Below are positions 3,768 to 25,124 of a stretch of DNA of 48,923 nt, piece after piece. Position 1 is the stretch's first letter; each line of letters opens with the position of its first letter. The stretch is taken from the IMG/VR virus record IMGVR_UViG_3300024999_000153, positions 1 to 48,923 of that record. One strand, given 5' to 3'. The position numbers and the translations under genes are program-made. The notes beneath the pieces were generated by a model. The model searched no databases, was not told the DNA's origin, and was given only the letters and a program-made list of their open reading frames with translations. This stretch comes from a virus.

Positions 3768-4030
3768 TGTTAAACACCACTAAAGATTTCGATAAGATGT
3801 ATAAATGTAAGGATCTACTTCCAGATCCCGGGCCTGAAGTAGTTAAAGGAATTCTTGATGATTACTTAGTACTTCTGGCATCTCATCAAAGACTTCTAGG
3901 CATAATGGCTCATGTAATAATAGCATTATATGAATCAGATAAAGCAACTGATTACCAACATTGGGTAGTAGGAAATGCTGAGAAGGTTCTTGCTAAAGCT
4001 AATGAGTTAGGAGATAAATCCTATGTCTAA
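3767..4030 (+). CDS. hypothetical helical protein (87 aa)
   Basis: TAATG overlap with the preceding gene and an AAGGAGGA just upstream: coupled translation. Mostly helical, with a hydrophobic run in the middle (LVLLASHQRLLGIMAHVIIAL) that is too amphipathic to be a confident membrane segment. Overlaps the ligase start by 8 bases. Unknown function. Confidence 0.75.
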   Translation: MLNTTKDFDKMYKCKDLLPDPGPEVVKGILDDYLVLLASHQRLLGIMAHVIIALYESDKATDYQHWVVGNAEKVLAKANELGDKSYV

Positions 4031-4889
4031 TCAACGCTCAGGAATTCAGTTAGCCTATCCCTTCGAAGAACGTCGCCTACTCAATCAAGGTCGCTTCTCC
4101 CTTCGATGGTCCCCTCCTTACATCCTTCAGCCCAAGCTGAATGGTGAGCGGTGCCGTCTTATTCACGAAGGAGATAGATGCCTCCTCCTTTCTTCTACCG
4201 AGGAGATCATCTCCAGCGTGCCTCACATCAATGAGGCTGGACTCCTCCTTCCCCAGGGTGAGTTCGATGGTGAACTCTATGTCCACGGGTGGACCTGGGC
4301 TGAAATTCACAGTGTGGTATCTACTACCTCCACAATGCACCCTAATTATGGAGCTATGCAACTTCACCTATTTGACATAATCACAGAGGGTTCTCAGATC
4401 TCCCGTCTAATCCAGTTGAATCAACGCTTCAGACTCAACGGACTGTCTCCATGCCTTCAACTGGTCGCCCCACATATGGCCAACACCTTGGAAGAAGTTT
4501 ATCAAATTTATGAGAAGTTCATTGGCCTTGGCTACGAAGGTTTCATCATTAGACATGTAGATGCCATTTACCTCCGCCGGCGAAGTCCTGCAATGATGAA
4601 ATTCAAACCTAAGGCTTTCGATCAGTATCTTATAACTGGAGTATATGAGGCCATATCTCAGAGCGGAACTCCTAAAGGTTTAGCTGGTGGGTTCAACTGT
4701 ATCGACGACATGGGTACTACCTTCTCCGTAGGTGCTGGTAAACTCTCTCATGATGAACGTAGAGAAGTATGGTACAGATGGCAAGAATGCCCAGAGACTT
4801 TGGCAGGATCTTATCTTGAGGTAGAGTACCAAACCATGTCTGATAAGAAACGAGTTCCCCTGTTCTCCAGAGCTGTGAGGATAATATGA
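4023..4889 (+). CDS. ATP-dependent DNA ligase (288 aa)
   Basis: Seals nicks in phage DNA by lysine adenylation. Motif I is KLNGER with the catalytic Lys at residue 38. EFDGELY near residues 80-86 is motif III, YEGFIIR near 171 is motif IV and MMKFKPK near 191-197 is motif V. The C-terminal ~90 residues fit an OB-fold. At 288 aa it is a minimal phage ligase without an N-terminal DNA-binding domain. The start overlaps the previous gene by 8 bases. It probably acts with the polymerase and the recombination genes downstream. Confidence 0.93.
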   Translation: MSNQRSGIQLAYPFEERRLLNQGRFSLRWSPPYILQPKLNGERCRLIHEGDRCLLLSSTEEIISSVPHINEAGLLLPQGEFDGELYVHGWTWAEIHSVVSTTSTMHPNYGAMQLHLFDIITEGSQISRLIQLNQRFRLNGLSPCLQLVAPHMANTLEEVYQIYEKFIGLGYEGFIIRHVDAIYLRRRSPAMMKFKPKAFDQYLITGVYEAISQSGTPKGLAGGFNCIDDMGTTFSVGAGKLSHDERREVWYRWQECPETLAGSYLEVEYQTMSDKKRVPLFSRAVRII

Positions 4890-5077
4890 ATACTACAGAT
4901 AAAGAATCTGCGGATTTTAATCTCAAATGGGAACGTTTAGGACTTACTACCTATCGTCTTCGCGTCTATGGAGGCTGGATGGTGACTACAAATAGTACAC
5001 AGAATAACTGTGTTGCAGAATCTTCCATTTTCATTCCAGATCCTCTCCATTTCTGGACCGTCGATAACGATGAATAA
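4886..5077 (+). CDS. hypothetical protein (63 aa)
   Basis: ATGA overlap with the ligase stop. Starts MNTTDKESADFNLKWERLGLTTYRLRV; beta-rich, polar, one Cys. No recognisable family. Followed by a 23-bp palindrome. Confidence 0.65.
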   Translation: MNTTDKESADFNLKWERLGLTTYRLRVYGGWMVTTNSTQNNCVAESSIFIPDPLHFWTVDNDE

Positions 5078-14001: not shown

Positions 14002-16485
14002 ATGAGAGCCACTTATGTACCTTCGGCAGGTTCTAAAGATGCCCCCTATATAATTGTAGGCGAACAACCTGGCAGGACTGAAATTATTAGAGGTAGACCT
14101 TTCTGTGGTCCTGCAGGTATGGAATTGGAAGATAATCTTAGGATAGCAGGTATTAATAGAGCAGATTGTTTTCTAACCAACGTCATCAAGGACGCTGATA
14201 GACCCCTCGGCCACTACATTGAATTCAATCCTAGGAAAGGTACAGTAATCCATCCTCCTGGACAGGAGTATATCAATGAACTCGCCCAAGAACTTACATC
14301 ATGTTCAGGAAAGATTATTATCGCTCTTGGAAACACGGCTCTATTTGCACTGGCCGATAGAGTGGGTGTTACGAAGTGGCGAGGATCAGTACTCTCCCCG
14401 ACACTGGTTTCAGATAAGATACTTATCCCGTCGATCCATCCTTCAACGATCATCTTTCCTAAGAACCAGTATACTAATAAGAGACTCCTCATTTATGACC
14501 TCCTCAGGGCGAGACAAGTTAGGGAGGGTAAATGGAAGACTTTAGAACGACATATAGCCATTAGGCCTACCTTTTCTCAAGCCCTCAACTTCCTGAACGT
14601 CTGCTCTATGTGGGGTAAACTTGGAAACCCAGTTGCTTATGATATCGAAGTGGACGTCTTCAACGGGGAGATGACTTGTATCTCCTTTGCCTACACTCCT
14701 ACTGACGTTATGTCCATCCCCTTTACTTGTGAGAGGGGGGACTACTTCACTCTTCCACAGGAGGCGGAGATCCTCAAGGCTATCGCCAAGATTCTCGAGG
14801 ACCCCTCTATCCCCATCCTAGGACAGAACCTTGTCTTCGACTGTCACTACATGCTGAGGAAATATGGAATACATACATCAAACATCCACGACACGATGGT
14901 TGCGCAGAAGACTTTACTTCCTGACTATCCAGTGGGCCTTCACTTCATTTGCTCACAGTACACCGACATTCCTTACTATAAAGATGACGGAAAATACTGG
15001 CTTAAGGGTATCGGAAACTGGGAAAGTGGGTGGCGTTACAATGCACTTGACTCTGTAGTCTGTGCAGATGCATACCCTAAGCAAATGGACGCGCTCTTCA
15101 AACAACACAACTACTTTGCCTACGAAAGAAAGCGAAAGTCTATTCTCCCCTATGTCTTCATAATGGAGCATGGGATCAAGATAAACCTCGGCTCCATGCA
15201 ACAAGCCTATGATGATGCGGAGAGAGAAGAGCAAGATCTCCTTCGTCAACTCCATCATAAATGTGGCTTCGACCTTAACCCTAACTCTCCCAAGCAAGTA
15301 GCCACCTACTTCTACGTAACTAAGAAACTCCCAGCATATAAGAACAAAACTGGAGGCAACACTACTGATGAAAAAGCCCTTAAACGAATCGCCCGCAAGG
15401 GTTACCCTGAAGCATCAATCATCCTTAAAATTCGTGGACTTAACAAAGAACGGGCAACTTTTCTCGATACTGCTAAAGTTGACCCTGATGGAAGAATGCG
15501 ATGCTCTTACAACCCCGTTGGAACTAGATTCTCTAGGGCTTCGAGCTCTGAGAATATATTCGGGACAGGTAACAATCTTCAGAACCAACCCCATAGGGTT
15601 CTTACACACTTCCTTGCCGATCCCTATCATGTCTTCTATGGGATGGACCTAAGTCAGGCGGAGAATAGGATCGTAGCCTATGTGGGACGCATCAGTCAAA
15701 TGATCGAGGCATTTGAAAATAAGGAGGATATACATGGCCTTACCGCCAAAATCATGGCAAATATCTTCTTCGGAGCTGAGAAAGCTCGCGACATTAATGT
15801 TAAAACTGCCATCGCTCCCATTGGGGATGGAAAGAAGAGTTGGAGGGATTGGGGAAAACGGGCAAATCACGGATTAAATTATGATCTTGGGTACAAAACC
15901 TTCTCGCTTTATAATGAGATACCGGATAGAGACGGAAAACTCATTGTGGATATATACCACAGAGCTTATCCTGGTGTCAGAAACGGATTCCACTCCTATG
16001 TACAAAGTTGCATCAACCGCAATCGAACCTTAACCAACCTGATGGATCGCAAAACTGTCTTCACGGACAAAATTGACGACTCCCTCTACAAGGACGCATA
16101 TGCCTGCATACCTCAGGGAACTGTTGGAGATGTCATTGATGAACGAGGTCTTAACTTCGTCTACTACCACAGAGACCCCCTCTTCAGAAGCGTTAAACTT
16201 CTTATCCAAGTTCACGATCAAATTGGATTCCAAATCCCGACGCCTCTGCATCCAGACACTCCCGTGTCCTGGGAAGATCATTCCAAAATCCTAGGGATGA
16301 TCAAGGCCTCACTTGAAACTCCACTCTACACCCACTACGGATTGAAGTTCACTATACCAGCGGACACTACCATGGGAATCTCATTGAATAAAGAGTTGGG
16401 TCAGGACCTAGATTCATTCGACCCTGAGTATTTGGAAAAGACTTACTACAAGTGTACTGAACGATGGCTTCCATTAATTATATAA
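14002..16485 (+). CDS. dpoZ: family A DNA polymerase with N-terminal UDG-like and 3'-5' exonuclease domains, DpoZ candidate (827 aa)
   Basis: Residues ~1-185 resemble family-4 uracil-DNA glycosylase (VGEQPGRTEIIRGRPFCGPAG, ALGNTAL, SIHPST). Then a DEDDy exonuclease: Asp214/Glu216, LGQNLVFD near 273-281, and Tyr...Asp near 346-350. The polymerase has motif A DLSQAE (Asp549), motif B R615...K619...N622-H623-G624...Y627, and motif C VHDQ (Asp739). Compared with E. coli Pol I, the O-helix Phe762 position is His and the motif C Glu is Gln. PolA proteins of this layout accompany PurZ in 2-aminoadenine phages. Replicates the phage genome; specificity for Z over A is inferred from context. Confidence 0.85.
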   Translation: MRATYVPSAGSKDAPYIIVGEQPGRTEIIRGRPFCGPAGMELEDNLRIAGINRADCFLTNVIKDADRPLGHYIEFNPRKGTVIHPPGQEYINELAQELTSCSGKIIIALGNTALFALADRVGVTKWRGSVLSPTLVSDKILIPSIHPSTIIFPKNQYTNKRLLIYDLLRARQVREGKWKTLERHIAIRPTFSQALNFLNVCSMWGKLGNPVAYDIEVDVFNGEMTCISFAYTPTDVMSIPFTCERGDYFTLPQEAEILKAIAKILEDPSIPILGQNLVFDCHYMLRKYGIHTSNIHDTMVAQKTLLPDYPVGLHFICSQYTDIPYYKDDGKYWLKGIGNWESGWRYNALDSVVCADAYPKQMDALFKQHNYFAYERKRKSILPYVFIMEHGIKINLGSMQQAYDDAEREEQDLLRQLHHKCGFDLNPNSPKQVATYFYVTKKLPAYKNKTGGNTTDEKALKRIARKGYPEASIILKIRGLNKERATFLDTAKVDPDGRMRCSYNPVGTRFSRASSSENIFGTGNNLQNQPHRVLTHFLADPYHVFYGMDLSQAENRIVAYVGRISQMIEAFENKEDIHGLTAKIMANIFFGAEKARDINVKTAIAPIGDGKKSWRDWGKRANHGLNYDLGYKTFSLYNEIPDRDGKLIVDIYHRAYPGVRNGFHSYVQSCINRNRTLTNLMDRKTVFTDKIDDSLYKDAYACIPQGTVGDVIDERGLNFVYYHRDPLFRSVKLLIQVHDQIGFQIPTPLHPDTPVSWEDHSKILGMIKASLETPLYTHYGLKFTIPADTTMGISLNKELGQDLDSFDPEYLEKTYYKCTERWLPLII

Positions 16486-16495
16486 GGAGAATACT

Positions 16496-16669
16496 ATGGG
16501 AATGTTATTATCTACCCCCGAGATAAGTATTAAAGTTAAAGAAGTACTGGGAGTAAATCAAGTTATAGTTTTAGAGATTACCTATAGAGATACTGATGGA
16601 CCCTATTATATAGGAGAACCTAGAATTAAAGTATTTAATTTAGTTGTTGGAGAGTCAGTTGTAATATGA
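16496..16669 (+). CDS. small beta-rich hypothetical protein (57 aa)
   Basis: TAAGGAG seven bases before ATG 16496, 10 bases after the polymerase stop. Begins MGMLLSTPEISIKVKEVLG and consists of alternating hydrophobic strands, with no Cys and no membrane segment. AT-rich. A palindrome follows its stop by three bases. Unknown function. Confidence 0.65.
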   Translation: MGMLLSTPEISIKVKEVLGVNQVIVLEITYRDTDGPYYIGEPRIKVFNLVVGESVVI

Positions 16670-16672
16670 TTC

Positions 16673-16695
16673 CTACGTTCCAAATTGTAACATAG
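16673..16695. repeat. 23-bp palindrome copy 5
   Basis: CTACGTTCCAA, A, TTGTAACATAG. Followed by AAGGAG and the ATG of the small membrane protein at 16712. Confidence 0.95.
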
Positions 16696-16711
16696 AAGAT
16701 AAGGAGATCTT

Positions 16712-16861
16712 ATGAGATACGTAAGTTTGGCAATCTCTATGGTATGCCTAATTTCTGCACTAATAATGTTGTATAAAGGAAATATTAGTGCAATGTTGGG
16801 ATGGCTAAATGGATTTACAGGATGGGGACTTCTCTATTTAGAAGAATGTAGGGGTATTTGA
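16712..16861 (+). CDS. small membrane protein (49 aa)
   Basis: AAGGAG six bases before ATG 16712; ends one base before the next gene. Two hydrophobic stretches (about residues 4-21 and 26-43) separated by YKGN predict a helical hairpin membrane protein. Could be a holin-like or superinfection-exclusion peptide, but its place among replication genes argues for neither in particular. Confidence 0.65.
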   Translation: MRYVSLAISMVCLISALIMLYKGNISAMLGWLNGFTGWGLLYLEECRGI

Positions 16862-16862
16862 C

Positions 16863-18068
16863 ATGGGCAGAAAGTTAGCAGACTGGCTCGACTCTTACAT
16901 GATCTATACGAATAATTCGGAACCACCAAAGTTATATCATACTTGGACCGCAATCTCCACAGTGGCCGCAGCCCTCCAGCGAAAGTGCGTGATGAATTGG
17001 GGACCTATTCAATTCTACCCTAATATGTACGTCGTACTTTGTGGCCCCGCGGGGAGGGCACGTAAGGGGACTGCCATGTCCTATGGCAAGAACTTCCTCT
17101 CTCGCCTCGGTATTAAGATGGCCGCGGAGTCCATCACCCGGGAGGCATTGGTAAGGGAAATCATGAATGCCCAGACCACTGAGATTGATACCGAGACTGG
17201 GGAGATGACATTTCACTCTTCCCTGACAGTGTATGCCCCGGAACTAGTAGTCTTCCTAGGCTATAACCAACAACAACTAATGATGGATCTTACCGACTGG
17301 TTCGACTGTGGCTCTGGACCTGATGGCAAGTGGACTTATCGCACCAAGCATCAAGGTACTGATGAGATAGTAGGAATTTGGATAAATCTGATTGGCGCTA
17401 CTACCCCTGATCTCCTACGCTCATGCCTTAGCATGGATGCCATTGGCGGAGGACTTACCTCAAGGATTATCTTCGTCTATGAGCCTGACAAGTTCCAATC
17501 TTGCCCTGCCCCTTTCCTCTCTCAGGCTGAGAAGGATCTGAGTGAATCACTCTACTATGACCTAGAACAAATCCACATGATGAAAGGAGTCTTCAAACCC
17601 TCCAAGGACTTCATTGACTTGTGGGTCGATTGGTACATCAAGAGTGATCAACAACATCCCTTTGATGATCCACACCTGGCCCCTTACTGTGAACGTCGCC
17701 CAGTCCATGTGATGAAACTGGCCCTAATCCTCAGCGCATGTCATACTGACTCGATGATTGTCACGGCTGACGACCTTAGTCGTTCTATCAGGACCATAGA
17801 ACAGACTGAAAGGAATATGCCTAAGACCTTCTCAGGCATTGGAAAGTCTCCTCATGCTGAAGTCCTATCTAAGGTCATGAATGAGATAGGATTAGCAGGG
17901 GAAATCTCCATGCGTGAGTTGCAGCAGAAGTTCTACCATGATGCGGATGCCAGAGTCCTTGAGCTGATTGTTCAGACTCTCTCCGGGATGGGCTTCATCA
18001 CCCGAGTAGAGAGAGGGAATGATACCATACTTAGGTACCATAAGGTTAGGCCGGGAGGTGAAGTATGA
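16863..18068 (+). CDS. DUF3987-like replicative ATPase (401 aa)
   Basis: The N-terminal part (LADWLDSYMIYTNNSEPPKLYHTW...YPNMYVVLCGPAG) is typical of DUF3987-like phage proteins thought to be primase-helicase-type ATPases. The P-loop reads GPAGRARKG (residues 61-69), a variant Walker A. A strand ending LTVYAPEL is the Walker B region, and a winged-helix-like C-terminus follows (ISMRELQQKFYHDADARVLELIVQTL). Placed between polymerase and purZ and coupled to purZ by ATGA. No separate replicative helicase or primase was recognised, so it is the best candidate for that work. Confidence 0.75.
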   Translation: MGRKLADWLDSYMIYTNNSEPPKLYHTWTAISTVAAALQRKCVMNWGPIQFYPNMYVVLCGPAGRARKGTAMSYGKNFLSRLGIKMAAESITREALVREIMNAQTTEIDTETGEMTFHSSLTVYAPELVVFLGYNQQQLMMDLTDWFDCGSGPDGKWTYRTKHQGTDEIVGIWINLIGATTPDLLRSCLSMDAIGGGLTSRIIFVYEPDKFQSCPAPFLSQAEKDLSESLYYDLEQIHMMKGVFKPSKDFIDLWVDWYIKSDQQHPFDDPHLAPYCERRPVHVMKLALILSACHTDSMIVTADDLSRSIRTIEQTERNMPKTFSGIGKSPHAEVLSKVMNEIGLAGEISMRELQQKFYHDADARVLELIVQTLSGMGFITRVERGNDTILRYHKVRPGGEV

Positions 18069-18988
18069 TAGATGTAATTGTAGGAGGTCAATTCGGATCT
18101 GAAGGTAAGGGTAAGGTTACATATATTCTTGCAAATGAATCTATCCATAAATGTGTAGCAAGAATAGGGGGTCCTAATTCAGGACATACAGTTAAAGGAA
18201 AAGTATTAAGACAACTTCCAGTATCTGTATTAATAGACCGTGGAGTATCCATAATAGGAGCTGGAAGTTATATAGATGTAAATATACTTGAAGAAGAAAT
18301 CTCTATACATAAACCTAAAAATTTATATATAGATTCTAAAGCTGTAGTAATAAGAAGAGCAGAAAAATCATCTTTAAGAGATAATATAGGATCTACTTTA
18401 ACAGGTACTGGGGAGGGGGTATATGATAGAGTGTCTAGAAATGATACTATATTTATAAAATCTTATAAAAACTTTGCTAAATATATAGTAGATACAGAAG
18501 CTATACAAGATGTAATTTCGAAAGGTTGTATAGTAGAGGGTTCTCAGGGATTTGGATTATCTAATATTCATACTCCACACTATCCCTACTGTACTTCAAG
18601 GGATACTACTGCTGCAGGATTTATATCTGAATTAGGGGTAAGTCCTCTTGATGTAAGAAATATTTATTTAGTTATTAGAACTTATCCTATACGAGTTGCA
18701 GGAAATTCAGGGCCACTACCATTTGAAATTTCTTGGGAGCATATAGGAGTTGCAAAAGAGTATACATCTGTAACTAAGAAAGTCAGAAGGGTTGGAGAGT
18801 TTGATCCTGAAATAGTAAGAAAGGCTATAAGATATAATAAGCCTACACATATTATACTTAATCATCTTGACTATATTCATAGTAGTCTAAGAAAAGATTT
18901 TGTGGAAAGTATAGAAATATCTATAAAATCTAAAATAGATTATATTGGATTAGATTCTGAAGATTTGTGTGATAGGAGTATATTATGA
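18065..18988 (+). CDS. purZ: PurZ: N6-succino-2-amino-2'-deoxyadenylate synthase (PurA family, 307 aa)
   Basis: PurA-family GTP-binding loop VGGQFGSEGKGK at residues 6-17: the catalytic Asp of host PurA (WGDEGKGK) is Ser12 here, the hallmark of PurZ, which joins Asp to dGMP on the route to dZTP. Also visible are RIGGPNSGHT (~33-42), VEGSQGFGLS, the TSRDTTAAG loop, YPIRVAGNSGPLP and KKVRRVGEFDPE. Much shorter than PurA (~430 aa), as expected of phage PurZ. Visibly AT-rich codon use (ATA, AGA, TTA) unlike the gene before it. ATGA overlaps on both sides. Confidence 0.88.
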   Translation: MIDVIVGGQFGSEGKGKVTYILANESIHKCVARIGGPNSGHTVKGKVLRQLPVSVLIDRGVSIIGAGSYIDVNILEEEISIHKPKNLYIDSKAVVIRRAEKSSLRDNIGSTLTGTGEGVYDRVSRNDTIFIKSYKNFAKYIVDTEAIQDVISKGCIVEGSQGFGLSNIHTPHYPYCTSRDTTAAGFISELGVSPLDVRNIYLVIRTYPIRVAGNSGPLPFEISWEHIGVAKEYTSVTKKVRRVGEFDPEIVRKAIRYNKPTHIILNHLDYIHSSLRKDFVESIEISIKSKIDYIGLDSEDLCDRSIL

Positions 18989-19302
18989 AACAACTAATCG
19001 ACCTCCTCCATATCCTTCAATGTAGGAAGAATCACGAGAGTGACATGGCCCGAGCCTTCGAGCGCTTAGAGAATGTTTGCTATTACTATCTGGAGAATGA
19101 TATAGCAGATGGAGAGTCTATGGAAGATCATACCATCTGGACTCAAAACGTGGAGAAGTTCAAGATAGCTATGAACTTAGGTAGTGACCAACAGACTATG
19201 GACTTCATAAGAGATTGCATCAAGATCTCCCATCAAATCCATAGTCTTTCCACTGGGTCTAAGTACAGAGTGGACTTTATCAAATCTCTGCTAAACCTCT
19301 AA
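18985..19302 (+). CDS. hypothetical protein after purZ (105 aa)
   Basis: ATGA overlap with purZ, last gene of the rightward arm, ending eight bases from the convergent structural operon. All-helical, with a YYYLEND segment and no Cys cluster or HD motif, so it is not DatZ. Co-translation with purZ suggests a link to nucleotide metabolism; no direct evidence. Confidence 0.7.
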   Translation: MKQLIDLLHILQCRKNHESDMARAFERLENVCYYYLENDIADGESMEDHTIWTQNVEKFKIAMNLGSDQQTMDFIRDCIKISHQIHSLSTGSKYRVDFIKSLLNL

Positions 19303-19310
19303 TGACTGGA

Positions 19311-22300
19311 TTAAAAGGAGGAAGGTAATCCCTTCCTTCTCCCATTCCCTCTTGGTGCTTCCTTATAAACTCCCATAATTACCTCATAAGGATTCCCTCC
19401 ATTGTAAGCTGTATTGATAGACTTCATTATCTGATTAGTCATCGGCACACCATAACTGTACCCCATAGCCTTAGCTATGAGTTGGATATTCTTCCTCTTC
19501 TCCCTTGGAGTCAACTTATTCCAGTCAAGGGATTCTGAGAACTTCATTGCTGCCTCAGGCACCAGTGATGCCCACTCTCCCATGATCCCACCTAGTGAAG
19601 ATCCATACTTAGCACTTCCACCGATCATAGGCAACTTCTCCAGGAGTTCTCCGGCCGCGGATGCGATTGCGTGAACATCACTACCATCATCACCCTTAAC
19701 TTTAAGATACTCTCCCACTGGATCAGGAACTACATTCTCATAGCCCATCATCTTATACAACTGGCCCGCGAGGACAGTCGCCACTACATACTTCGTAGCT
19801 CGCATCAATGCCTGCTTGTTATTCACATCTGCATTCTTAATCCCTAACACGTCCCTAATAATGAAGTTGAAGTCAGCAATTCCGAATGTCTGGAGTAGGG
19901 TCAACCACTTAGTAACCTTCCCCGTCTGTATATCTGAAACTGCCCCCTTAATCCCCATGCCCTGAGTCTTCTCCACCACATCATCTGCGAAGTGAACCAA
20001 GTCTTCACCACTCAGCTTAAGAGTATTCTTCCCATAATGATAGCCAGCATTCCAACTAGCCTCCGCCACTACTCCATCCACCCACTTCATAGGGGCCATA
20101 CTCTTATTGCCGAGCCAGTCCTTTGTCCCCGTGGCCAAGCCACGCTGAACATAATCAGTCCATTCGGAGTATGCTAGGTCGAACTCTCTGATAGCCAACA
20201 CTGAGGATTTCTGTTTGGCTAAGGAGGCCTTCCTACTGAATGTCCTATCTGCTACCATCCTACTCAGGCCATAGAGAGTACTCTTGGTATCTAACAAGGT
20301 GGGTACGGCTATGATGTAAGAGGAAGGTTGTACGAATATAGTCCTCAGTGATCCACCTATAGTAGCCAGTACCAGATTCTTACTTAATGACTCCAAGCCC
20401 TTATGAATCAAGGGATTAGTATTAGCCATTGCAGTAGCAGTCGGATCCTTACCCACTATCGCATCACTCCACTTACTCAGCATTACACTTAGGGCAGGAT
20501 TCCACTCACGAAGGGTTACCTTCCCAGTTCCTGAGGGATGGGGTAACTTAACATAAGCTAACTCCTTCGCTAAGGCTGCCACTGGACTAATATGGATTTC
20601 ATCCAGGCCATAGCTTGAGTATTTCTCAATAGCTTTGAAGGGATCCAACTCAATCGGTATGTCTGAAACATTTCTCTTCTTAGCATGAGGATTAAACATC
20701 CCGTTAAATGTCTTACTCAGTTGTCCAAGTTTGGCACTCGTTGAGTTAATCATTCCCTCTCCAAGTCCCAACTCTCGGAGGACATTCAAGTCTCTGAAGA
20801 GTGGCAGATAATTCTCCCTCCCCTTCATGTCCAATAACTTAGGTATGGCCTTCTGCCCTGTGTGGGTCCTCACGTAATTGGATCTCTCACGAAACTTCCT
20901 AGTGTAGTCAAGGAGCTGTTCCTTAACAAGTTCCTCATGAGGTAGGAGGGAAGGAATGTCTGTAATCTCCATCTTCTCATAAGCCTCCTTAACACTCTTC
21001 ATATCTGCATAACATACAATGGCGAAGTCCTTCATTCTTTCAGGAGCAATCTTAGACTTAAGACCCTCCAGCCACACCTTAACCTCTGCCTTCTCCGCCT
21101 TAGACTCCGCAAGTGAATCTCTCCATGTTCTATAAAGATCCCTAATAGGCCCGCGAAAAGCATTGATCTTAGTCTCCGTAGCTGTCATGAACCTATCTAC
21201 TACGTTGGTAGTATGTTCTACTATGACCCTGCCAGTCTTAGGATCAGTCCTATCTATATCCCTACCGAAGTTACTCTTCCTATCCATCCCCACTACACCA
21301 TCTGCAAGATCTTTAGGCACAGCAGGTTTAGTCCACACTACCTTCCCATTCCTATCTTTCTTAATAGTCTGGTGAGCAATAGGTCCAGTGGGGTCCAAGA
21401 TTTTGGCTCCCAACTTATCCCCATCCCTAATCTCCTGCTTCATCTGGCCCACATTAGCCAAAGAGGCCTTGAACAAGTCTATGGAAGCTTGATCTACACC
21501 CATACTAGAAAGGTAATCATCTATAGACTTCCCAACTTTCTTAGCCATCTTCACTACATTCTCTATCTGATCTACAGCCACCCTTAGGCCAGTCACATCT
21601 ACTGACCCGCGTTCATTACCTAAGATACTTTTCTTAGGTTTCTCGAATACTAAGATATCTTCAGCCTCAACCTTCGGTCTACTAATCTTTCCATCTGCCA
21701 AGCCCGAAGTTTTAATTTCCTCTCTATACATCAACTTAAATCCTGCCTCTTCCATAGCCTTAATATGAAAGTCTGTAACTGGTACTACTTTTCCACCACT
21801 AATAAAATCCTTCATATTAATTACAGCAATACCACCATCCTTAACAACTCTAAAGAATTCCTTATATGACTCCTCATGTAATTTCTTATACTTAGGTCCA
21901 AAGGTCATTCTACCAGAATTACCAGTAGTCATTTCCCTACCAAGAGAATTAGCATAGGTTAAAGTATCTACTTTCCCTCCAAGTCTAGGATAAGCTAGAG
22001 CATTTCCATAAGTGGGAGAGGTAACTATAGCATCAACACTTCCCCCCTTAACACCCTCCATATTCCTAGCATCACCAGTAATACTTACATCAACTTTATT
22101 CCCCTTATGAAGAGATGACCATTCAGCCTCCAATTCATTAGCAATAACTTTACCCTTAAATCCATGATCTTTAATCTTCCCTATATTTCCCACTCCTCCA
22201 AAGGGATCAAGTACAATCTTAGCACCTACCTTATTAACTATATCTGCAAATATGGGAAGAAATCTTTCTGAATAAGTAGCAGGATGTGTTATAACCTTAT

Positions 22301-25124
22301 CTCCCTTACTTCTATCAATAAATACTCCCTTCATTTTATCCTTAAATACTTCATTATGAGACTTGAAAATCAGGCCTAGGTCAGGGATAGTAATTGACCC
22401 CCTCTCATTATTCATTATACTCCACAAATCCCTTCCTGCCCCATCCCCTCTCTCACCATAATCCAAGACCTCATCTCCAAGTCCACCTTCCCTCCCATAG
22501 GATTCCTCAAGATACTCCTTCTCTCCAAGATCCCACATATCACCTTTGTCTAGGAGGTCAAGTTCAGGTTCCAAGAAATACTTCCCTGTGGCAGGATCTC
22601 TGATTATCTCCCTCTCAGTACCCTTAGCATCTCGGAAGGCCTCAGCATCTTCCACCTTGTCGAAGATTGCAAACTTGTCGTCGACTAATGGGAGGGCTTC
22701 CTTAGTAATTGGAGGAGTCTTGCCTCCCCCGGAGGCGGGGGTTGCTACGTTCCGTTTTGTAACATAGGAATCTCTCCACTCTAAGAACTTCTTTGCTGCG
22801 GAGGCAGAGTCTAAGGCTACGCCCTTAGGTATTTCAGAAGGGGCAGACTCTCTGGCTGCTTTGACTTCAGCCACTGCCTCCTCACCCAATCGAATCTCCT
22901 CAAGATTCACCCCCTGAGTAATCTCCTCCAACACCTTCCAATCCTCTGCAGTCACCCCATCACTGTAGAGGTCATCTACCTCTGAGGTACCCTCTTCCGC
23001 CTTCCTCGCTTCTTCCTCCTTAGCAAGTTCATACACACGACGGGCCTCACCATCTCCCATGTCCTCAGAAACATATTCTCCCCGAGGCTTAGTAGACTCC
23101 TCAGTATACTTCCCAACTCTATACTTCTCTCCGATCTTAACAATCTCAAAGTTAGCTCCCCTGCTGGAGGCATCGGCCTGGGCATCCTCAAAGGAGGAGT
23201 ATCTCTTCTTTCCTGGAAATTCATATCCTTCCTCCTTAGCGATTCCTACTGAATCAAATTCAGGTGTTATGATCTCGGGTGTGACCTCAATTACTGGAGC
23301 AGCAGCTACCTCTTTCACAGGAGGCTCAAACCCTCCCTTAACCTTCTCATACCTAGCCCTAACCTCCTCAGGTTCTAGACTTAATGAGGAGAAGTTCCTA
23401 CCTTCGCTCGTAATGAACTGGTGGGTTTCGAACTCTCCCAACTTTGAGGAACCTTGGTAAGTTATGCCAAGTTCCAGAGAATCTAATACTTCTTGAATAG
23501 GCAGAGATTCAGTAGGAGCTACTGAGGATTTCCTAACTGGGACTTCTGCTCTAGTACCTGACGGTACTACAGGAGATTCTACAACAGGGGAAGTCTGTGG
23601 ATCAGGAGGGCTGAACTCAGGAACTTCTCCAGTCCCCTCAGCTAACTTCCTTCTCTCCAATACCTCCTGAATCTTGGCACTAGTCTTCGGCCCTATTCCC
23701 TTAATTGCCTTATAATCAATAGTCCCAATATCTTCCCCCAACTCAGCAACTATCTTAACTGCATTATTGTATCCTCGCTTACTTCCACCCTGAGCCATCT
23801 CAGCTTCAAGTCTTAACTCACTCAGGACATCTGAGTTGCCTTCAAACTTGGGTGCCGGCCCAGAAGTCTTATCCACCCTGGCCTTAGCCTGTCCCTTATT
23901 AATTTGCTCTGCAATCTTATCCAGAGGGGTGGCCGCAGCCTGGGCCTTAACACTATCAGGAACTTTGGGATCAGCTAAGACTTTAGCTTTAGCAGTCTCC
24001 AATACTTCTGGAGTAACCTCAACATTACCTTTTCTCATAGCACGCGCCATTCTTCTAGCACCCCCTACTGCAAAAGGTGCTCCGAGAAGTGCTGTATTAG
24101 CCACGTATTGCCATGCCTTGGATCTCGTGACTAACTCTTCTTCTGAGGCACCCTCAGGTGCTGAATCTCTTGCTACCTTATCAACTGTACCAAGAAAGGT
24201 TCCAAAGGCTCCCTCAATAGGCTTCAAGAGCAGCTGTCCTGCTGAAGTCCTAGGCTGATGCATACCAATTCTATTGGCCTCTTCAGCTATGTCAAATGCC
24301 TTAGCCAATCCTTTCTTATTAGTGGGAAGTGCTCCAACTCCACCTATAACCTGTCCAGCTGGGAAGGACAATGCTCCAGATCCCAATGCTACAGCTGCCT
24401 CAGGTATTCCGAAAACTGCATCAATGGCACTCTTAACAACTGGATTAACCGAGGGATGCTTAAATCCCCAGGGTAACTCTCCTACTGGAGCAGGTGGAGT
24501 AATAGATTCCTTGGCAGAATCCACTATCATCTTTCCAACTTGATCATGTTCAACGAAGTTTCCTAGAGTAGAACTGGTAGGATCAACGTCTGGAAGTAGA
24601 CTAGTCTTCTGGTTCGAACTTGAGGGTTCTCCAAAATCGTTCCAACTCAATCTTGGAGACTTTGGGACTTGCCCCTCCATAGGACTAATTCCACTCTCAA
24701 CTTTGTTTATATAATCCTGAGTCTCCTTGGGATACTCTGCACCACTAGCCACATTCCCCATACCGAAGTTATATGCAGCAAGAGCCTTAACTCTATCACC
24801 CCCATACATATCCATTAACTTCTTAACATACCTAACTCCACCATCAATATTCTGGCGAGGCTCATACGGATCCACCACACCTAACTCCTGTGCTGTCGGT
24901 GGCATGAGTTGCATCAGACCTTTGGCACCCATCTTGGACGTGGCCCTAGGATCAAAGTTACTCTCAGTCTTCACCATAGATCTTATGAGACGAGGATCTA
25001 CTCCATGTTTGGTAGAGATCTCATCAATCAGAGGATAGAAATCCTCAGGACCTTGTATAGTAGGAGTAGCCTGTGTAACGGTGGGGGGAACTGAAGTATC
25101 GAATACATCCCAAGAGAGTGCCAT
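19311..25124 (-). CDS. giant internal virion 'polyvalent' protein: lytic transglycosylase + HhH + DNA methyltransferase (1937 aa)
   Basis: Residues ~28-135 are an SLT transglycosylase (VKTESNF with catalytic Glu54, GLMQLMP, AAYNFGMGNV) that would open peptidoglycan during DNA entry. Residues ~428-494 form a helix-hairpin-helix unit (SKRGYNNAVKIVAEL, IKGIGPKTSAKI) like the Pol-beta N-domain. Residues ~911-1166 are a DNA amino-methyltransferase: HPATYSERFL, SAM loop LDPFGGVGN (~973) and TSPTYGN (~1033). The C-terminal ~700 residues are helical, like large ejected proteins. GAGGT precedes ATG. The methylase part is more AT-rich than the rest and lies between two NERGS motifs. Last gene of the leftward operon. 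Confidence 0.88.
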   Translation of the reverse strand: MALSWDVFDTSVPPTVTQATPTIQGPEDFYPLIDEISTKHGVDPRLIRSMVKTESNFDPRATSKMGAKGLMQLMPPTAQELGVVDPYEPRQNIDGGVRYVKKLMDMYGGDRVKALAAYNFGMGNVASGAEYPKETQDYINKVESGISPMEGQVPKSPRLSWNDFGEPSSSNQKTSLLPDVDPTSSTLGNFVEHDQVGKMIVDSAKESITPPAPVGELPWGFKHPSVNPVVKSAIDAVFGIPEAAVALGSGALSFPAGQVIGGVGALPTNKKGLAKAFDIAEEANRIGMHQPRTSAGQLLLKPIEGAFGTFLGTVDKVARDSAPEGASEEELVTRSKAWQYVANTALLGAPFAVGGARRMARAMRKGNVEVTPEVLETAKAKVLADPKVPDSVKAQAAATPLDKIAEQINKGQAKARVDKTSGPAPKFEGNSDVLSELRLEAEMAQGGSKRGYNNAVKIVAELGEDIGTIDYKAIKGIGPKTSAKIQEVLERRKLAEGTGEVPEFSPPDPQTSPVVESPVVPSGTRAEVPVRKSSVAPTESLPIQEVLDSLELGITYQGSSKLGEFETHQFITSEGRNFSSLSLEPEEVRARYEKVKGGFEPPVKEVAAAPVIEVTPEIITPEFDSVGIAKEEGYEFPGKKRYSSFEDAQADASSRGANFEIVKIGEKYRVGKYTEESTKPRGEYVSEDMGDGEARRVYELAKEEEARKAEEGTSEVDDLYSDGVTAEDWKVLEEITQGVNLEEIRLGEEAVAEVKAARESAPSEIPKGVALDSASAAKKFLEWRDSYVTKRNVATPASGGGKTPPITKEALPLVDDKFAIFDKVEDAEAFRDAKGTEREIIRDPATGKYFLEPELDLLDKGDMWDLGEKEYLEESYGREGGLGDEVLDYGERGDGAGRDLWSIMNNERGSITIPDLGLIFKSHNEVFKDKMKGVFIDRSKGDKVITHPATYSERFLPIFADIVNKVGAKIVLDPFGGVGNIGKIKDHGFKGKVIANELEAEWSSLHKGNKVDVSITGDARNMEGVKGGSVDAIVTSPTYGNALAYPRLGGKVDTLTYANSLGREMTTGNSGRMTFGPKYKKLHEESYKEFFRVVKDGGIAVINMKDFISGGKVVPVTDFHIKAMEEAGFKLMYREEIKTSGLADGKISRPKVEAEDILVFEKPKKSILGNERGSVDVTGLRVAVDQIENVVKMAKKVGKSIDDYLSSMGVDQASIDLFKASLANVGQMKQEIRDGDKLGAKILDPTGPIAHQTIKKDRNGKVVWTKPAVPKDLADGVVGMDRKSNFGRDIDRTDPKTGRVIVEHTTNVVDRFMTATETKINAFRGPIRDLYRTWRDSLAESKAEKAEVKVWLEGLKSKIAPERMKDFAIVCYADMKSVKEAYEKMEITDIPSLLPHEELVKEQLLDYTRKFRERSNYVRTHTGQKAIPKLLDMKGRENYLPLFRDLNVLRELGLGEGMINSTSAKLGQLSKTFNGMFNPHAKKRNVSDIPIELDPFKAIEKYSSYGLDEIHISPVAALAKELAYVKLPHPSGTGKVTLREWNPALSVMLSKWSDAIVGKDPTATAMANTNPLIHKGLESLSKNLVLATIGGSLRTIFVQPSSYIIAVPTLLDTKSTLYGLSRMVADRTFSRKASLAKQKSSVLAIREFDLAYSEWTDYVQRGLATGTKDWLGNKSMAPMKWVDGVVAEASWNAGYHYGKNTLKLSGEDLVHFADDVVEKTQGMGIKGAVSDIQTGKVTKWLTLLQTFGIADFNFIIRDVLGIKNADVNNKQALMRATKYVVATVLAGQLYKMMGYENVVPDPVGEYLKVKGDDGSDVHAIASAAGELLEKLPMIGGSAKYGSSLGGIMGEWASLVPEAAMKFSESLDWNKLTPREKRKNIQLIAKAMGYSYGVPMTNQIMKSINTAYNGGNPYEVIMGVYKEAPRGNGRRKGLPSSF
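22745..22767. repeat. 23-bp palindrome copy 6 (inside a CDS)
   Basis: CTACGTTCCGT, T, TTGTAACATAG; the most degenerate left arm. Lies in the low-complexity linker of the giant protein just N-terminal of the methylase module, read as YVTKRNVATPA. Confidence 0.85.

Follow-up and report, generated by a model that had tools for sequence, protein, structure and literature searches.

A lone PurZ-type synthetase gene in a phage genome belongs to a mainly chromosomal branch and appears to be a recent single-gene insertion

Introduction

Z-DNA, in which 2-aminoadenine (Z) takes the place of adenine, is regarded as a phage trait that comes with matched gene sets. To our knowledge the polymerase DpoZ is dispensable for a Z genome, as phage S-2L does without it. 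Three described groups of proteins lie closest to the one analysed here. Phage PurZ (phiVC8, S-2L and Acinetobacter phage SH-Ab 15497) has the PurA fold with Ser at the catalytic Asp and a shortened chain. PurZ0 (Arthrobacter phage Wayne and Gordonia phages; PDB 7vf6) has a GSE motif and also carries Ser. The archaeal short PurA (Pyrococcus horikoshii, 2d7u/5k7x) has the short fold but keeps the catalytic Asp. Four archaeal sequences with Ser or Gly were placed basal to PurZ and PurZ0 in 2026 (PMC12884076).

The DNA analysed, referred to as the window, is the whole 48,923-nucleotide stretch of IMG/VR virus record IMGVR_UViG_3300024999_000153. Its purZ gene resembles those of the known Z-phages in active-site residues and differs from them in ancestry and in the company it keeps.

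The purZ gene and its product

The gene and its diagnostic codon are as follows:

18065..18988, plus strand: PurZ-type (Ser12) succinyl-transferring synthetase, 307 aa, ATG to TGA; based on family matches, composition, structure, tree and AU tests
18098..18100, plus strand: codon for Ser12, in place of the catalytic Asp13 of E. coli PurA; based on alignment

The product contains VGGQFGSEGKGK and its residue 12 is Ser. The initial annotation had read a PurA-family loop in which Ser12 replaces the catalytic Asp; the ORF, the alignment and the family matches confirm this. The protein matches the NCBIfam PurZ model NF038379 (E=4e-67, 226 bits), PHROG 1211 (E=2e-65), PDB 7vf6 (PurZ0, E=6e-46) and Pfam PF00709 (E=1e-39), scores which at the level of sequence similarity rule out a chance match. 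The NF038379 score falls below the curated cut-off of 300 bits and the archaeal PurA model PRK04293 scores nearly as high (206 bits), so that by family scores the protein belongs to the PurA/PurZ superfamily as a Ser-type protein and the label 'PurZ' is not automatic. Used as a single query it retrieved no relatives from IMG/VR; a 10-row profile retrieved hundreds.

The AlphaFold model is confident (pLDDT 91) and has the PurA fold that, together with the change of Asp to Ser or Gly at the catalytic position, characterises the broad Ser-type clade. Structure comparison gave Z scores of 36.2-36.6 to PurZ, PurZ0 and archaeal PurA alike (6fm1, 7vf6, 5k7x), including 36.6 to phiVC8 PurZ with bound ATP and dGMP (6fm1). 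The fold was rejected as a discriminator of PurA and PurZ (36.4 versus 36.6), and the case therefore depends on residues and trees.

Residues were compared in an alignment of some 170 proteins, with E. coli PurA residue roles that, except for R303, S23, T273 and Q308, we take to be those of the established PurA literature. These four positions are discussed in PMC8342488. The position of Ser12 is occupied by Asp in 9/9 PurA rows and by Ser in every PurZ and PurZ0 row. The window protein has three PurZ-type changes, D13 to Ser12, G298 to Thr234 (T273 in S-2L) and R303 to Lys239, and keeps Lys15, Asn38, His41, Thr111, Arg125 (E. coli R143), Gln161, Thr177, Val211, Thr237 and Arg241 (E. coli R305). 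Asp269 of the purine-binding motif (E. coli D333) is also kept, as in PurA and PurZ0; its equivalent is Asn in phiVC8-type PurZ and Gln in S-2L. PurZ-type chemistry, that is dGMP-directed succinyl-amino transfer, is thus well supported at the residue level, and the enzyme would be expected to convert dGMP to N6-succino-2-amino-dAMP. To this extent the interpretation in the initial annotation stands (Ser12, Thr234 and Lys239, with His41, Arg125 and Arg241 kept); its extension to Z replacing A genome-wide does not.

Phylogenetic position

In an IQ-TREE tree of 79 rows, all Ser/Gly-type proteins form one clade separate from PurA (100/100), within which the characterised phage PurZ (100/100) and PurZ0 (99/81) each form a clade of their own. 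The window protein lies in a third clade (100/100), in which bacterial and archaeal proteins predominate: 22 members are chromosomal, spread over many phyla, and 8 come from phages. The window protein sits on a long branch, and the tree gives it no well-defined nearest sister. AU tests rejected forcing it into the PurZ clade (p 0.0003) or the PurZ0 clade (p 0.0001), and joining it to all phage PurZ/PurZ0 rows gave p 0.02. The clade is marked by NSGHT (versus NAGH in PurZ/PurZ0), Lys17, Thr181, Glu189 and His267.

The window protein is 41-49% identical to the chromosomal Ser/Gly-type PurZ-like proteins and shares their clade marks, but it is shorter (307 versus about 345 aa) and stands alone. 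Identity to phage PurZ is 30-33%, and although Thr is found at the S-2L T273 position, the window protein has GSEGKGK, NSGHT and Asp269 where phage PurZ has GSTGKGL, NAGHT and Asn/Gln. PurZ0 is about 36% identical and shares the GSE motif with Ser, the purine-motif Asp and Lys at R303, but is set apart by the AU test; the archaeal short PurA falls outside the Ser-type clade (100/100). Among 80 chromosomal homologues the catalytic position is Ser in 70, Gly in nine and Asp in none, and one fragment lacks the position. The initial annotation had named placement with PurA-like regulators outside the PurZ clade as evidence against a Z genome. The tree comes close to this, as the protein is apart from PurA (100/100) but outside both characterised clades. 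No assayed enzyme of its branch was found in the searched literature.

Insertion as a single-gene cassette

The gene is bounded as follows:

16863..18068, plus strand: primase/helicase-like gene (PHROG 14296) bordering the insertion on the left; its product is 99-100% identical (aa) in the closest relatives without purZ
18063..18068, plus strand: left junction, sequence GTATGA, with the primase stop codon and the purZ start codon overlapping in ATGA; from comparison with purZ-less L004, L008, L011 and L026
18984..18988, plus strand: right junction, sequence TATGA, with the purZ stop codon overlapping the start codon of orf105; relatives have the primase joined directly to orf105 at this point
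18985..19302, plus strand: orf105, a conserved small gene (105 codons), right flank; no family match

The composition of purZ (GC 31%, GC3 12%) is far from that of the primase, polymerase, DUF6378 gene and orf105 (GC3 47-54%). Among 27 IMG/VR relatives gathered by polymerase similarity, purZ is absent wherever the primase/orf105 junction is legible. In four of them (L004, L008, L011, L026), with 89-95% aa identity in the polymerase and 99-100% in the primase, the primase runs into orf105 through the same ATGA that purZ splits in the window. A PurZ profile found no match in the whole records of 17 relatives (four of them 46-50 kb) or in Desulfofustis phage OP947158. Two relatives hold other AT-rich ORFs at this junction (L006:13863-14057, 65 aa; L012:5954-6232, 93 aa), suggesting that the site takes single-gene cassettes. 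The two ORFs and the window gene are mutually unrelated.

These comparisons indicate that purZ is a recent, foreign, single-gene insertion at the primase/orf105 ATGA overlap, and the phage group may include further carriers. An assembly artefact was considered and rejected, as both junctions are exact ATGA overlaps and the flanks match relatives. Related phage copies of purZ are under purifying selection (dN/dS 0.14-0.23; the window copy stands alone and lies outside this test), which favours an active enzyme.

Neighbouring genes and the Z machinery

Two neighbours had been cited as Z-linked in the initial annotation:

14002..16485, plus strand: UDG-exonuclease-PolA fusion polymerase, distinct from DpoZ and part of the phage group's core gene set; from family scores and relatives
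12720..13205, plus strand: DUF6378 protein, the earlier MazG/MazZ-like gene, core in close relatives; from Pfam, its structural model being too poor for classification

In the polymerase, exonuclease and PolA domains are fused to a uracil-DNA-glycosylase domain at the N-terminus. The enzyme had been described as a PolA of the PurZ-linked type, a description not borne out by its scores against the DpoZ models (62 and 33 bits; cut-offs 500 and 350) or by its presence in relatives that lack purZ. The gene at 12720-13205 encodes a DUF6378 protein with no detectable similarity to MazZ profiles and is likewise common to purZ-less relatives. As a MazZ-like candidate it was set aside: hhalign gave a probability of 0.1% against MazZ-1, and a poor AlphaFold model (pLDDT 47.5) yielded no Foldseek match. 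The MazZ-like reading is unsupported rather than disproved, because Z-phage Bm1 of Burkholderia has a DUF6378 gene adjoining datZ/purZ (L034:5395-6081); on the same ground DUF6378 might touch nucleotide metabolism.

A complete Z-genome system would include an enzyme that clears dATP (DatZ, DutZ or DmtZ), one that supplies dGMP (MazZ-1, MazZ-2, DUF550 or DUF5664) and DpoZ. A phmmer search of all window frames found none of these, nor the partners from the chromosomal operon described below; it gave a weak generic PolA match only, and positive controls between Z-phages were recovered. Profile searches of the window likewise found neither DatZ nor the dCTP-deaminase-like operon partner.

A genome with Z instead of A throughout, like those of S-2L and phiVC8, was the view of the initial annotation and would have PurZ acting with unrecognised pool enzymes or with enzymes of the host. 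The PurZ signature is there, polymerases in general accept Z (PMC8342488), and S-2L likewise has no DpoZ. We nevertheless regard this as distinctly improbable: relatives without purZ have a PolA 89-95% identical and a near-identical primase, homologues of DatZ, MazZ, DutZ and DmtZ were not found in the window, the protein belongs to neither the PurZ nor the PurZ0 clade, and the ParB/N6-N4 DNA methyltransferase gene is common to the relatives. The claim is thus left unsupported by a recent insertion, a placement outside both clades and searches that found no dATP- or dGTP-clearing gene from the known Z systems.

Other features of the window were noted. A gene conserved across the phage group (10519-11916) encodes a ParB domain joined to an N6/N4 DNA methyltransferase. 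An AT-rich gene (13506-13997, GC 35%), by eye like an HNH homing endonuclease and without Pfam support, was not found at that place in most relatives. The interval between the polymerase and primase genes (16485-16870) is AT-rich with short ORFs and is missing in L004. On the minus strand, 19311-25124 encodes a 1937-aa protein, a probable polyvalent virion protein; by eye, its start resembles a lytic transglycosylase and its DPFGG and TSPTYG motifs resemble those of methyltransferases.

The chromosomal purZ-like operon

Chromosomal relatives of the window gene lie in a conserved operon whose products are a DEDD exonuclease/DUF429 protein, the PurZ-like protein, a dCTP-deaminase-like protein containing a transmembrane helix and, in many cases, a deoxynucleoside kinase. 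The loci (L127-L206, with the PurZ-like gene near 4001-5005) come from many bacterial phyla and some archaea. At 76/80 loci a dCTP-deaminase-like (PF22769) gene follows or lies near the PurZ-like gene, at 72/80 an RNase_H_2 exonuclease/DUF429 gene, often with an AAA_18 kinase-like end, adjoins it, and a deoxynucleoside kinase (PF01712) is found at 31/80. No established name was found for the PurZ-like proteins of this operon. The searched open-access papers describe no PurZ operon with DUF429 or in a defence island, although the cellular proteins themselves may have been noticed earlier.

In the window none of the operon partners (exo/DUF429, DCD, dNK) was found, so the phage gene belongs to the branch by sequence and not by context. 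DatZ and the dCTP-deaminase-like partner were also undetected in 11 other phage records of the branch, many of them fragments, which makes the lone purZ a recurring pattern. Weak DCD-like matches in two PurZ-phage records (G048, G052) may be the phages' own dUTPases. Three phage contigs of 188-312 kb (L047, L053, L057) also have lone PurZ genes of the chromosomal branch.

The main rival to a partial use of Z, unlikely in our estimate but live, is counter-defence or interference: the four-gene operon would be a host defence module acting on nucleotides, which a solo phage PurZ neutralises or bypasses, for example by using up the operon's substrate, by providing or taking away its product, or by joining its complex. 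The lone phage genes described above fit this, as do the nucleotidase-like operon protein with a hydrophobic, membrane-type segment (71/72 dCTP-deaminase-like proteins), the exonuclease domain and the DUF429 protein, which weakly matches the PADLOC candidate PDC-S44. In 12 genomes the operon flanks matched 118 PADLOC models versus 10 for the flanks of canonical purA, and were also richer in restriction-modification matches; since the matches come from few proteins and from models that overlap one another, this counts as a hint. A relative of the window phage infects Desulfofustis (PMC10370329), and a Desulfobulbaceae genome carries the operon. Against counter-defence, PADLOC has no model for the operon as a whole, only weak matches to parts of it, and the kept catalytic residues point to enzyme chemistry rather than a decoy.

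With Asp269 of the GTP type and a residue at the R303 position that varies within the branch, the substrate could still be another purine. An enzyme that uses GMP, IMP, dIMP or a salvage product for general nucleotide supply would suit a branch tied to nucleotide enzymes in bacteria, with Asp269 and His267 unlike phiVC8 and S-2L PurZ. We consider this improbable, as PurZ enzymes that use dGMP show precisely the same replacements, Ser for Asp and Thr for Gly, and the hosts have canonical PurA for IMP (14/14 operon genomes tested).

More broadly, and tentatively, cellular PurZ may be part of a mobile four-gene operon of bacteria and archaea that produces or uses a modified purine deoxynucleotide, dZ for instance, perhaps against viruses, with phages carrying a lone purZ to exploit or counter it.

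Predicted function in the phage

The reading we prefer, at about even chances, is that the window protein, a compact PurZ-type enzyme from the chromosomal-operon branch, is probably active and gives at most partial 2-aminoadenine. In a phage group with otherwise ordinary A-DNA, a single lineage would have gained purZ as one coding cassette. The enzyme would join dGMP and L-Asp at the expense of a nucleoside triphosphate, GTP being the likelier donor because Asp269 is kept, and host PurB and kinases would carry the product on to dZTP. The dZTP would then compete with dATP, and since the PolA is generic and no gene for clearing dATP or making dGMP was recognised, virion DNA would contain partial rather than complete 2-aminoadenine, with a possible benefit such as protection from nucleases. 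Precedents exist in E. coli, where the S-2L Z-cluster led to 12% Z in plasmids and 4% in the chromosome, where S-2L PurZ with an incomplete cluster still gave Z in DNA at rates below those of the full cluster, and whose Pol I Klenow fragment does not discriminate between A and Z (PMC8342488). A fully base-replaced genome is unlikely because the partner genes of the known 2-aminoadenine phages were not found, although dGMP could be supplied, or dATP removed, by a gene that escaped recognition, or the phage could depend on host pyrophosphohydrolases.

Significance

What is new is the occurrence of purZ in a mainly cellular, little-noticed branch with its own operon and, in phages, as a lone and precisely inserted cassette. 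A PurZ-type enzyme is here a single swappable cassette in a phage group otherwise without purZ, and its nearest kin are cellular. If the enzyme is active, purZ can be gained first and alone, and partial Z-DNA would be an intermediate in evolution. Through the chromosomal operon, the role of PurZ chemistry in cells and its origin become directly testable.
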